Origin: Desulfoscipio sp. XC116
Lineage (GTDB): Bacteria; Bacillota; Desulfotomaculia; Desulfotomaculales; Desulfallaceae
Direction of reading: 5' to 3'
Length of the DNA stretch: 64,000 nucleotides
NCBI RefSeq assembly: GCF_039851975.1
Contig: NZ_CP156660.1
Location: 1,364,001-1,428,000 of the forward strand
Positions 42,950 through 46,844 of the stretch are shown here, in pieces. The position numbers and the translations under genes are program-made. The notes under the pieces were generated by a model. The model was not told the origin of the DNA and searched no databases. It saw only the letters and a list, made by a program, of their open reading frames with translations. Numbering within the stretch: position 1 is the stretch's first letter; each line of letters starts with the position of its first letter.

Positions 42950-43651
42950 ATGGAACAGGGATTATTAAACGAATTCAAGCGTCAATTAGAACAGGAAAAA
43001 AACAATTTAATGCAAACCATAAGCCATATCGACGATGGAGGTCTGGGCGTTTCCCTGTCGGAATCCGTAGAAGAGCTATCTACCTATGACCAGCACCCGG
43101 CAGACGTGGGTACCGAAGTATTTGAGCGCAGTAAAGATTTTGCCCTGCGTGAAGATGCCATGATTAAAATACAGGCTATTGAGCATGCCATGCAAAGAAT
43201 GCAGAACGGCACTTACGGTACTTGTGAAATATGTGGGGAAAAAATACCCTTGGAACGGCTGCAGGCGGTACCTTATACCACCCAGTGCGTCAATTGTCGA
43301 GCTCAGGTAGAGGAGCCTGCCCATAGAAAAAACGTGCGTCCTGTGGAGGAGGATATTTTGGAGCCGCCTTTTGCCCGTACTTTTAATGACCCCACGGATA
43401 AAAACGGTTACGACGGCGAAGACGCCTGGCAAGATGTGGCCAGATGGCAGGAACATTCGCCCCTTTCCGGGGCCGGGGCCTACTATGGCGGTGGTGAATT
43501 TGGCGGGGATGAGCCGGGTGATACGGATTTAATCGACCATATACCATACGAGGTGGGCAGTGATGGTATCTTTTATGAAAGTACTCGGGATATGGATAAT
43601 GAAAATGACCCTGCGGAAAGAATCGATGTTGGCATAAACCATGAAGATTAA
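42950..43651 (+). CDS. TraR/DksA-type C4 zinc-finger protein (YteA-like)
   Basis: An N-terminal coiled-coil region (EFKRQLEQEKNNLMQTI; DVGTEVFERSKD) precedes a C4 zinc finger, CEICGEKIPLERLQAVPYTT then CVNC. This is the layout of DksA/TraR proteins and of YteA, a sporulation-linked relative in Firmicutes. About 100 further residues are acidic and glycine-rich (from about residue 130) and probably disordered. It may bind RNA polymerase. AGGGGGG precedes ATG. Confidence 0.85.
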   Translation: MEQGLLNEFKRQLEQEKNNLMQTISHIDDGGLGVSLSESVEELSTYDQHPADVGTEVFERSKDFALREDAMIKIQAIEHAMQRMQNGTYGTCEICGEKIPLERLQAVPYTTQCVNCRAQVEEPAHRKNVRPVEEDILEPPFARTFNDPTDKNGYDGEDAWQDVARWQEHSPLSGAGAYYGGGEFGGDEPGDTDLIDHIPYEVGSDGIFYESTRDMDNENDPAERIDVGINHED

Positions 43652-43713
43652 TTAAGTGTTTTTCCATTGGAATTGTCACCGTCTTTAGCATATGGTATAT
43701 TAAGAGTGATTTT

Positions 43714-43824
43714 AAAAGTCGGGCTGGGAAAAGCACACGTCATAGCCGGGCCCTTGAGGCAGCGAATATGCCCGCGGGACTTCATCTTGGCTCTTAAGAT
43801 GAGGGCCCCCGGGTATTATTTTTT
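43714..43824 (+). promoter_or_regulatory. Riboswitch-like leader with terminator, possibly NiCo (czcD) type
   Basis: AAGTC (43716-43720) pairs with GACTT (43778-43782), enclosing AGCCGGG (43744-43750), GGCAGC (43758-43763) and GCGGGAC (43774-43780). These resemble NiCo riboswitch core segments in the same order. The closing 3' strand also belongs to a terminator stem, as expected for a switch. The first GGCA segment of the class is not clear here, so the class is tentative. Confidence 0.42.
43771..43824 (+). terminator. Strong terminator upstream of the CDF gene
   Basis: The arm at 43771-43788 (CCCGCGGGACTTCATCTT) pairs with 43796-43813 with two mismatches, followed by TATTATTTTTT. It sits about 55 bp before the CDF start and must be avoided for expression. 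Confidence 0.75.
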
Positions 43825-43878
43825 GTGCATTGGTAACTGGTGTGGTTGCCGGGTTGTTATATATAGGGGGAAGGATAT

Positions 43879-44844
43879 ATGTTTGCTGAAGAGAAAATAA
43901 AAGTGGCTCGTCTATCTATCATATCCAATTCAATATTGACAGTAGGCAAGTTGGCCGTCGGTCTTTCAATGAATTCAATTAGTGTTATATCCGAAGCCAT
44001 CCATTCGGGGCTGGATTTAATGGCGGCCCTGATTGCCTTTGCGTCGGTGCGGGAATCCAACAAACCGGCTGATGACCGGCACAGGTACGGGCATGGTAAA
44101 TTTGAAAACCTGGCGGCTATTATTGAAGCGATTTTAATACTGCTGGCTGCGGGCTTAATCGTTAAAGAGGCATTACCCCAATTATACGAAGCAACTGAAG
44201 TTAAGTCGCTGGGTTTGGGAGTTGTAGTCATGGGTGTCTCCGCTGCAATGAACTTTTTTGTCTCCACCAGGTTGATGAAGGTGGCTAAAAAGACTGATTC
44301 ACCGGCTCTTGCCGCCGATGCCTGGCACTTACGTACTGATGTTTTAACTTCTTTGGGTGTGTTGATTGGCATAGTGATTATGAAATTCACCGGCTGGCTT
44401 ATAGTTGATCCGCTTATTGCCATTGGCGTAGCGATATTAATTGTAAAAGCAGCTTATGATCTGCTGAGGGAGTCTCTGGGCAGTATGTTGGACGTTCGGC
44501 TGCCGGACAGCGATGAACAAGCTATCAGAGACATTTTAGAAGGTTATGCCAGCCGGTATGTTGACTATCGAAATTTGCGCACTCGCAAAGCCGGGCCACA
44601 GCGGTATATCGATTTTAACCTAATTGTGCCGCGAGGTAAAAAGATTATCACCTCTCATGAATTATGCGATAGCATTGAACGGGATTTGCGTCAACACTTG
44701 CCCGGAGTGGAAGTTATTATTCATGTTGAACCTTGTGTGCCCGAAGCGGGAGACTGTGATATATGTAAGATCCGTTTACATTATCAAGGGGAGGGAAGCA
44801 GCGATACTTGCGCTGTGTGTGATAAGTGTCGCGGTAAGCTATGA
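43879..44844 (+). CDS. Cation diffusion facilitator metal exporter
   Basis: It is a proton-coupled exporter of divalent metals in the cytoplasmic membrane. Six helices cover about residues 10-210. Metal ligands are H42 and D46 in ISEAIHSGLD and the DAWHLRTD pair in helix 5. RHRYGHGKFENL is typical. A cytoplasmic domain follows, then an unusual cysteine-rich tail with CDIC and overlapping CAVC and CDKC motifs. AGGGGGAAGG precedes ATG. The upstream leader suggests metal-controlled expression. Length is 321. Confidence 0.92.
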   Translation: MFAEEKIKVARLSIISNSILTVGKLAVGLSMNSISVISEAIHSGLDLMAALIAFASVRESNKPADDRHRYGHGKFENLAAIIEAILILLAAGLIVKEALPQLYEATEVKSLGLGVVVMGVSAAMNFFVSTRLMKVAKKTDSPALAADAWHLRTDVLTSLGVLIGIVIMKFTGWLIVDPLIAIGVAILIVKAAYDLLRESLGSMLDVRLPDSDEQAIRDILEGYASRYVDYRNLRTRKAGPQRYIDFNLIVPRGKKIITSHELCDSIERDLRQHLPGVEVIIHVEPCVPEAGDCDICKIRLHYQGEGSSDTCAVCDKCRGKL

Positions 44845-44948: not shown

Positions 44949-45665
44949 GTGCTATTTGGGGATGAAGTGGAAGTTTGCTTACAGAGAATCAGGGAAGGTG
45001 ACGAATCGTCAAGGGAAAAGTTAATAACGGATGCCAAACCCTTTATTGCCGGGGTGGTAGGTCGCCTTTGCGGCCGCAGTCTAAGCTGGGACCGCGATGA
45101 TGAACTGAGTATTGGACTGATCGCCTTTAATGAGGCTATTGAACGGTTTAAGGAAAAAATGGATGTGCCTTTTACCGCCTTTGCACGCATGGTGATCAGG
45201 AGCAGGGTGACCGACTATTTGCGCAAAGAATCAAGATGGAACCGAGTGGATTTACATACGTGGGAGATGCCGCCTGAAGGGGCAATCAGCCAGGCGGAGA
45301 AAAATGCTTCGTGGATGAAATATGTTGATGAAACTGCTCGGCGTGAAAGAATTGAGGAAATAAATAATTATAATTTAAAAATCAGCAGTCTGGGCATCAC
45401 ATTTAAGGACCTCGTAAAAGTGTCGCCAAAGCACCGGGATACCCGGCAAACATTAATTCGGGCGGCCTGCTATATTGTAGAACACCGTGTGTTATACGAT
45501 GCTTTACAAGCCAGCAAACGACTGCCCATGCGAGAGTTGGAGCTGGGTACGGGCATAAGCCGCAAGGTACTTGAGCGAGGTCGTAAATATATTATCGGTA
45601 TAGCTACTTTGCTGTATTATCGTGAAGAGTTTATTTACTTAAGTTCGTATGTCAGGTTACCATGA
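44949..45665 (+). CDS. sigI: RNA polymerase sigma factor SigI (GTG start)
   Basis: SigI is a small sigma-70 family factor for heat, envelope or, in cellulolytic Clostridia, polysaccharide signals. Region 2 is seen in DDELSIGLIAFNEAIERF and PFTAFARMVIRSRVTDYLR. The C-terminal SigI-specific domain has LPMRELELGTGISRKVLERG. GTG 44949 has GAGGGAG (44934-44940) 8 nt upstream. The next gene encodes the matching anti-sigma factor, 15 bp away. Length is 238. Confidence 0.92.
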   Translation: MLFGDEVEVCLQRIREGDESSREKLITDAKPFIAGVVGRLCGRSLSWDRDDELSIGLIAFNEAIERFKEKMDVPFTAFARMVIRSRVTDYLRKESRWNRVDLHTWEMPPEGAISQAEKNASWMKYVDETARRERIEEINNYNLKISSLGITFKDLVKVSPKHRDTRQTLIRAACYIVEHRVLYDALQASKRLPMRELELGTGISRKVLERGRKYIIGIATLLYYREEFIYLSSYVRLP

Positions 45666-45680
45666 GGGGAGTGTTGATTG

Positions 45681-46844
45681 ATGAGACCGGGCCGGGGATT
45701 AGTTCTAGAAATAAAAAAAAGAAGCTGTGTTGTCGTAACCGGTGACGGTCAGTTTTTGGAAGTACCCAGACCTTGCAGCGATCTGGTTTTGGGACAGGAA
45801 TTAGTATTTAACCGATCAGTCCGGCCAGGGTTTAAATCTGTCTATTTAGCAGTGGCATCGGTAATGGTAGTTGTTCTGGCCTGGTTTGTTTTTAACTCTA
45901 CGCTCCCCCGGGCAGTGGCATATGTTGCACTGGATATTAACCCCAGCCTGGAGTTGGGGATTAATAGCGGAGGGGAGATTATCTCTGCCAGGGGTGTTAA
46001 TGATGATGGCAAGGAACTTCTAAAAAAGGTAACGGTGGTGAATGAGCCGTTGGCTGAAGGTGTACAGAAAATTATAGCCGGCTGTATTACATACCAATAT
46101 CTAAATTCCGGCCAAGAGAATCTCGTGTTGGCCACAGTAACCGATGTTGTGCCTAAAAAATCAGATAAAGAAAGTACTGCGTCAATTAATGAGGTTCATG
46201 ATTGTGTATACAACTCCATAAACAGCTCGATAGATGAAGCTGGAGTGAGAGCGAAATTGATAGTAGCCGATACTAATTTAGAAACCATGAAAAAAGCTCG
46301 TGATAGCGGTGTTACTCCCGGTCGTTATATATTGCAAAAAGAAGCGCTGAAAAAAGGAGTACAAATAACCGACCGGGAATTAAGGGAAGAACCTATTCGG
46401 GAATTAGAAGTACAGAAAAATTTTCGGATCGGAGATCTGATGCAAAAGGAAATTAACAATGGGTTATCCGACAAACCTGATAAGTTTGGCAAAACCGGAA
46501 AACCTGCAAAAAAAAGCAACTCTGACGATCACAATAAACCTGCATCATTCTCACCGGAAAAATTCGATGATAGTCAAAATAATCGCGTGGGACGTAATGT
46601 TACCCGTGATAATGAAAATGATAAAGAAAGTACTAATAACGCCCGGGGAAAATCGCCTGTTTTCCGGGATAATGGTGATTTTTCTAAGAGACAACTGTTC
46701 CATCGGGATAAAGAATTACAGAAAAAAGACAACCCCAAACAAAAAGAAACGAACAGATATGAAAGAGATGATACGGTTTGGAAATTTAATAGAGATAAAC
46801 ATAAGGACAAAGGTAAGGATAACGATAGATATAAAAATAATTAA
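45681..46844 (+). CDS. rsgI: Anti-sigma-I factor RsgI family
   Basis: It probably holds SigI at the membrane until an outside signal. Residues 1-50 form the cytoplasmic RsgI N-domain, one helix covers about 54-72, and an outside domain begins AYVALDINPSLELGIN. In studied RsgI proteins the chain self-cleaves between N and P of this motif (here N87-P88). From about residue 245 the tail is a long run rich in K, D, N and R with no domain, unlike the carbohydrate-binding RsgI of cellulolytic species. ATG 45681 follows GGGGAGTG. Confidence 0.9.
   Translation: MRPGRGLVLEIKKRSCVVVTGDGQFLEVPRPCSDLVLGQELVFNRSVRPGFKSVYLAVASVMVVVLAWFVFNSTLPRAVAYVALDINPSLELGINSGGEIISARGVNDDGKELLKKVTVVNEPLAEGVQKIIAGCITYQYLNSGQENLVLATVTDVVPKKSDKESTASINEVHDCVYNSINSSIDEAGVRAKLIVADTNLETMKKARDSGVTPGRYILQKEALKKGVQITDRELREEPIRELEVQKNFRIGDLMQKEINNGLSDKPDKFGKTGKPAKKSNSDDHNKPASFSPEKFDDSQNNRVGRNVTRDNENDKESTNNARGKSPVFRDNGDFSKRQLFHRDKELQKKDNPKQKETNRYERDDTVWKFNRDKHKDKGKDNDRYKNN

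Follow-up and report, generated by a model that had tools for sequence, protein, structure and literature searches.

The window, a 64,000-nucleotide stretch of the genome of Desulfoscipio sp. XC116, contains a leader just upstream of a CDF metal exporter gene. This arrangement raises the question whether the leader is a metal-sensing riboswitch and, if so, how it relates to the NiCo riboswitches of Rfam family RF02683. A preliminary description had placed the leader between a zinc-finger gene and a CDF exporter gene, and these neighbours were identified as a DksA/TraR C4 zinc-finger gene (yteA family) and a CDF gene. The paired segments AAGTC (43716-43720) and GACTT (43778-43782) were found, in the order and at the places described, around AGCCGGG (43744-43750), GGCAGC (43758-43763) and GCGGGAC (43774-43780). 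A sigma-I (sigI) gene and then an RsgI-like anti-sigma gene lie directly 3' of the CDF gene (44949-46844 of the window). The features of the locus are given below, with scores of the covariance model R1, for which 27 leaders of orthologous CDF genes were aligned with MAFFT without regard to structure (alignment A1); counts out of 64 refer to distinct compact elements.

42950-43651: DksA/TraR C4 zinc-finger gene (yteA family), upstream neighbour of the leader
43673-43701, + strand: promoter-like site TTGTCA-17-TATATT with extended TG, a consensus match only
43714-43785, + strand: compact NiCo-like aptamer, R1 model match of 57.1 bits
43716-43720, + strand: P1 5' strand AAGUC, pairing with GACUU at 43778-43782; column 4/83 covaries (AU, UA, GU)
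43721, + strand: J1/2 nucleotide, G in the window and A in 63/64 compact elements
43722-43747, + strand: P2, a contiguous GGCUG/UAGCC stem without the canonical NiCo bulge; double changes in 5/6 pairs
43748-43749, + strand: unpaired GG of J2/3, probable counterpart (mapped by position) of Co-binding guanines of NiCo; G in 62/64 and 64/64
43750-43760, + strand: P3, GCC...GGC; double changes in 3/3 pairs
43762-43775, + strand: P4, GCG...CGC; fourth pair A43765/C43772 mismatched in the window only
43771-43824, + strand: intrinsic terminator, hairpin 43771-43813 and U-run 43814-43824; mutually exclusive with P1, J4/1 and P4
43776-43777, + strand: unpaired GG of GGGAC (J4/1), probably corresponding to the other two Co-binding guanines; G in 61/64 and 64/64
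43778-43782, + strand: P1 3' strand GACUU, common to P1 and the 5' arm of the terminator
43879-44844, + strand: CDF metal exporter gene (Cation_efflux and ZT_dimer domains, HxxxD/HxxxD site, Cys-rich C-terminal tail)

From the promoter-like site, transcription is predicted to start at approximately 43708, a few bases 5' of P1, and TATA(C/T)T-like boxes were present at equal distance in the leaders of many relatives. The segment 43714-43785 folds as a four-way junction, of which the 3' strand doubles as the 5' arm of the terminator. That the closing strand forms part of a strong terminator, as previously described, was confirmed by a hairpin (CCCGCGGGACTTCATCTT...AAGATGAGGGCCCCCGGG, 43771-43813) followed by a U-run (TATTATTTTTT). 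The first GGCA segment, which had been reported as lacking a clear form, does have a counterpart, UCGGGC in the window and UCAGGC in relatives, which comprises a shortened joiner and the start of P2. The window element carries two private changes, a G for the near-invariant A of J1/2 at 43721 and the broken P4 pair A43765/C43772. Because of these two departures, it may be somewhat weakened.

Single-sequence folding of leader and terminator together gave a structure more stable than dinucleotide shuffles (z -3.41), whereas the aptamer part alone was no more stable than its shuffles (z -0.06). Since single-sequence folding thereby reveals the terminator and not the aptamer, comparative evidence was needed. 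RNAalifold applied to A1 yielded the four-way junction P1 to P4 de novo, with double changes in five pairs, and the named structure showed 28 double-change cells on this alignment as compared to 11.8 after shuffling and a maximum of 8 in slid controls. In an out-of-seed set of 21 elements from other classes of the phylum, RNAalifold again recovered the same junction de novo, with 8 covarying pairs. Among all 64 distinct elements, in an alignment fitted to the model, 89 double-change cells were counted, where shuffling gave 25.6 and slid controls no more than 23. Covariation in related genomes, on whose presence the preliminary description had made its proposal depend, was therefore found for the same four helices in 27 relatives and repeated in the 21 out-of-seed elements. 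The strict consensus of leaders of orthologous genes reads GUC-A-GGY(P2)RCC-GG-GCC(P3)GGC-A-R(CGG P4 CCG)Y-GG-GAC.

A strong terminator and an aptamer that alone folds no better than shuffled sequence are also what would be expected if the leader held just a conserved intergenic terminator, rich in G+C, that resembles NiCo by chance. This explanation is contradicted by the covariation of P2 and P3, which both lie outside the terminator. Conservation of the junction letters GG, GGCA and UCA across the phylum, and the ability of RF02683 to pick the exact slot of the element in relatives, also speak against it, and it is regarded as extremely improbable.

A search of the window leader (43500-44100) against 4227 Rfam models gave no match even at E<=10, RF02683 included. 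Application of RF02683, for which the curated cut-off is 37 bits, to 60 related genomes gave scores of 65-80 bits for the canonical NiCo elements present in some of them. In approximately 20 others, weak matches of 20-37 bits occurred just 5' of the orthologous CDF gene, of which a single one (37.1 bits) reached the cut-off. The Rfam NiCo search proposed in the preliminary description was thus negative for the window leader and positive, at low scores, for the same slot in its relatives, where NiCo was the only Rfam family to match the elements, mostly below cut-off. Elsewhere in the genome that contains the window, sub-threshold RF02683 matches scored 17-21 bits, and one of these (L029) looks like coding sequence. 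Conversely, R1 gave only 14-24 bits on canonical NiCo loci. Each model, at 14-24 bits for R1 on canonical and 20-37 bits for RF02683 on compact elements, therefore largely misses the other form.

The Rfam NiCo consensus consists, from its 5' end, of P1, an AG/A internal loop, a C-G pair, an unpaired A and a P2 with a 2-nt bulge. When features of RF02683 were examined one by one, the compact form showed P1-P4 in order as a four-way junction, the guanines of J2/3 and J4/1, and a 3' strand shared with a terminator that lies 5' of a heavy-metal exporter gene; it lacked the AG/A loop (the 4-nt A-N-C-A joiner) and the bulged P2. In place of this loop, the compact form can be drawn with C-G and U-A pairs whose columns hardly vary. 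As covariation consequently provides no proof of them, we infer the UC-GA pairing of the compact form, in which a U-A pair replaces the internal loop. Among canonical elements whose core could be read, the joiner from the last P1 pair to P2 measured 4 nt in 31/31; in compact elements that could be assigned, it was almost always 3 nt (UCA).

Absence of the P2 bulge by itself did not separate the two forms. Canonical-type elements without a bulge were found in L008, L009, L319 and L321, those in L008 and L009 with a contiguous P2, so that the bulge is not strictly defining. In L319 (G332) and L321 (G190), a 4-nt AACA or AUCA joiner precedes a 3-bp P2 with a GAAA or GAAAA loop, which is about the smallest P2 seen. 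Intermediates that combine AUCA joiners with a bulged P2 (L306, L311, L312) also occur. In view of such intermediates, the compact RNA is, as judged from sequence comparison, most readily understood as the short extreme of a continuous range of NiCo forms. It was not filed as a member of RF02683, because its score falls below the curated cut-off and it lacks the J1/2 feature. The compact element is almost certainly homologous to NiCo and almost certainly acts in the same way. The earlier suggestion of a divergent NiCo-type leader is supported by the exclusive Rfam match in relatives, the preserved junction and guanines, the exporter gene and the terminator overlap. The suggestion of a new metal-sensing RNA holds for a structural subtype of NiCo and for nothing beyond that.

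Searches with R1 identified one strong element per genome in approximately 40 of 113 genomes of the class, in genera that, according to record titles, include Desulfallas, Desulfoscipio, Desulfotruncus and Desulforamulus. In a sample of the phylum, 62 of 398 genomes, including Syntrophomonas-like ones, matched at E<=0.001, and some of the weaker matches were canonical or intermediate NiCo elements. A DNA pattern scan covered the whole collection; among the matches listed, 80 loci were rescanned with R1 and 32 of these scored at E<=0.01. Roughly half of these 32 look like real elements, while the others, from genomes rich in G+C such as those of Streptomyces, appear to match by chance.

A CDF gene was located 3' of every one of the 58 stronger compact elements with enough downstream sequence, out-of-class elements included; the other 8 of the 66 stronger elements are on short fragments cut just 5' of CDF genes. 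The seed set had been selected by CDF linkage, while the out-of-class hits had not. Among 20 weaker elements, 16 precede a CDF gene, one (L342) a P-type ATPase gene and one (L325) a decayed CDF gene; of the two without an assigned gene, L327 is cut short and the other is L336. Canonical elements sampled likewise preceded P-type ATPases in 18 cases and CDFs in 17. Several loci showed altered arrangements. In L325 (G040) and L326 (G081), the compact RNA has been kept before a decayed or truncated CDF gene, and G040 has a canonical NiCo element elsewhere in its genome. In five loci of one genus (g14; L044, L045, L046, L048 and L055), all 5' of a CDF gene, P2 is collapsed (AUCAGCAGGCCGGCCC...), whereas the remaining core and the terminator are retained. 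These elements score 10-28 bits with R1 and may represent a three-way form that has no P2, or a copy in decay. The first 50 bases of L089 (G042) contain a terminator-like remnant (CCCGCGGGAUUUCAUC...GAUGAACCUGCGGG) approximately 280 bases 5' of the CDF gene, and a search of G042 with R1 found no aptamer.

The crystal structure of the NiCo riboswitch (4RUM) shows Co ions I and II bound by G46, G47, G87 and G88 and associates G45 with site III (PMC7689651). The corresponding positions of the compact form, mapped onto the 4RUM numbering by sequence position rather than from coordinates, are the GG dinucleotides of J2/3 and J4/1, which are G in 95-100% of the 64 compact elements and are all four present in the window. 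The metal sensed by NiCo/czcD is itself disputed, with Co/Ni in the first reports and Fe(II) in later ones (PMC7689651; PMC9294342; PMC11477304). By analogy, the compact form would sense a metal, presumably Co/Ni or, as is now argued for NiCo, Fe, although without the two structured loops the RNA may bind metal differently or no longer at all.

Alternatively, a change in specificity might explain why the J1/2 and P2 loops are missing: the compact scaffold would have come to sense another metal than the canonical one does, such as Fe(II) or Zn instead of Co/Ni. Consistent with such a ligand switch, joiner length separates the forms, and a quick tree of CDF proteins showed strong clustering by RNA type, with 6 label changes as compared to 28.8 after shuffling, so that the compact form mostly tracks one CDF clade. 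Most CDFs under compact elements (L101-L158 and the window) have 4-8 cysteines in their last 60 residues, whereas those under canonical elements have 0-2. However, the directly ligating guanines are unchanged, the HxxxD/HxxxD site is present in most CDFs of both groups, and one compact element has a P-type ATPase gene 3' of it, an arrangement common among canonical elements. The 4-nt joiners without a P2 loop in L319 and L321 further make the change look gradual. Genomic context in one family of the same phylum also argues against a switch: a cobalamin riboswitch was found 5' of the compact element in 6 of 7 fetched loci (L345, L346, L347, L349, L350, L351), and in L345 and L347, both of which were read completely, it precedes cobT, which in turn directly precedes the compact element and its CDF gene. 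This context is a hint that points to cobalt. It is accordingly considered unlikely that the compact form is a riboswitch class in its own right, whose preference for a metal, such as Fe(II) or Zn(II), was retuned through the shorter J1/2 and the missing P2 loop, alongside a clade of Cys-rich-tailed CDFs. A single origin of the compact form was not supported by the quick tree. At least 4 label changes are forced on it. Although it follows a single main clade of CDFs, the compact form therefore seems to have emerged or moved at least twice.

Pairing of downstream sequence with either the GGG of GGGAC or the 3' strand of P4, to give a hairpin, was seen in 65 of 66 elements; in 55 of the 66 it is also followed by a U-run, as compared to 8% with shuffled downstream sequence. 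This overlap renders aptamer and terminator mutually exclusive. In NiCo riboswitches, metal binding prevents formation of the terminator (PMC7917058; PMC7689651), and, by analogy, excess metal should turn the exporter on. In the proposed mechanism, the P4 3' strand, GGGAC and the P1 3' strand would, without metal, pair downstream as a terminator and transcription would end before the CDF gene. With a divalent transition metal in excess, ions bound at the two guanines of J2/3 and the two of J4/1 would keep the four-way junction together; the metal-bound aptamer would then occupy the 5' arm of the terminator, allowing polymerase to read through and the exporter to be made.

The same overlap could in principle serve an attenuator controlled by a protein or sRNA, such as a metalloregulator acting on the leader, instead of a direct metal sensor, and direct ligand binding by the compact element is itself an inference. 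A protein site would not require what is conserved here, namely the NiCo junction and its Co-binding guanines, and the element accompanies the same CDF gene in many genera; such indirect control is judged quite improbable. Conservation, covariation, terminator overlap and gene linkage are observed here. Together with the analogy to NiCo, from which metal binding, the metal and the ON direction are drawn, they indicate that the leader is very probably a compact, NiCo-derived, metal-sensing riboswitch that turns on the CDF exporter gene.

A natural minimal form, linked to a single exporter clade, that retains the ligating guanines without the two neighbouring loops offers a clean test of the role of these loops in affinity, cooperativity and selectivity. 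As the Rfam model misses most of one widespread NiCo branch, regulation of metal exporters is under-annotated in Desulfotomaculia-type and related clostridial bacteria.

Divergent relatives of NiCo may have been sighted before: the "Sensei" RNAs of Bandyopadhyay et al. (2020) were reportedly NiCo-like and proposed as Fe(II) sensors, in a paper that is said to have been retracted later. The yybP-ykoY manganese riboswitch senses a metal, as the present element probably does, and resembles it in its four-way-junction fold and in its control of metal transporters. It differs in its junction sequences, and the window leader gave no Rfam match to it. The closest known system is RF02683 itself. Compared with canonical NiCo elements, the compact form has a core that is approximately 25 nt shorter (median 77 nt canonical, approximately 52 nt compact), a UCA joiner (UCG in the window) instead of AGCA, AUCA or AACA, a contiguous instead of a bulged P2, and P3 and P4 stems that are often short, with P4 usually closed by CGG/CCG; in the window and nearly all relatives it scores below the curated cut-off. 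Both forms share the junction order P1-P2-GG-P3-A-P4-GG-P1, the GCCGGG, GGCA and GGGAC core, an aptamer 3' strand that overlaps an intrinsic terminator, and control of CDF (and P-type ATPase) exporters.
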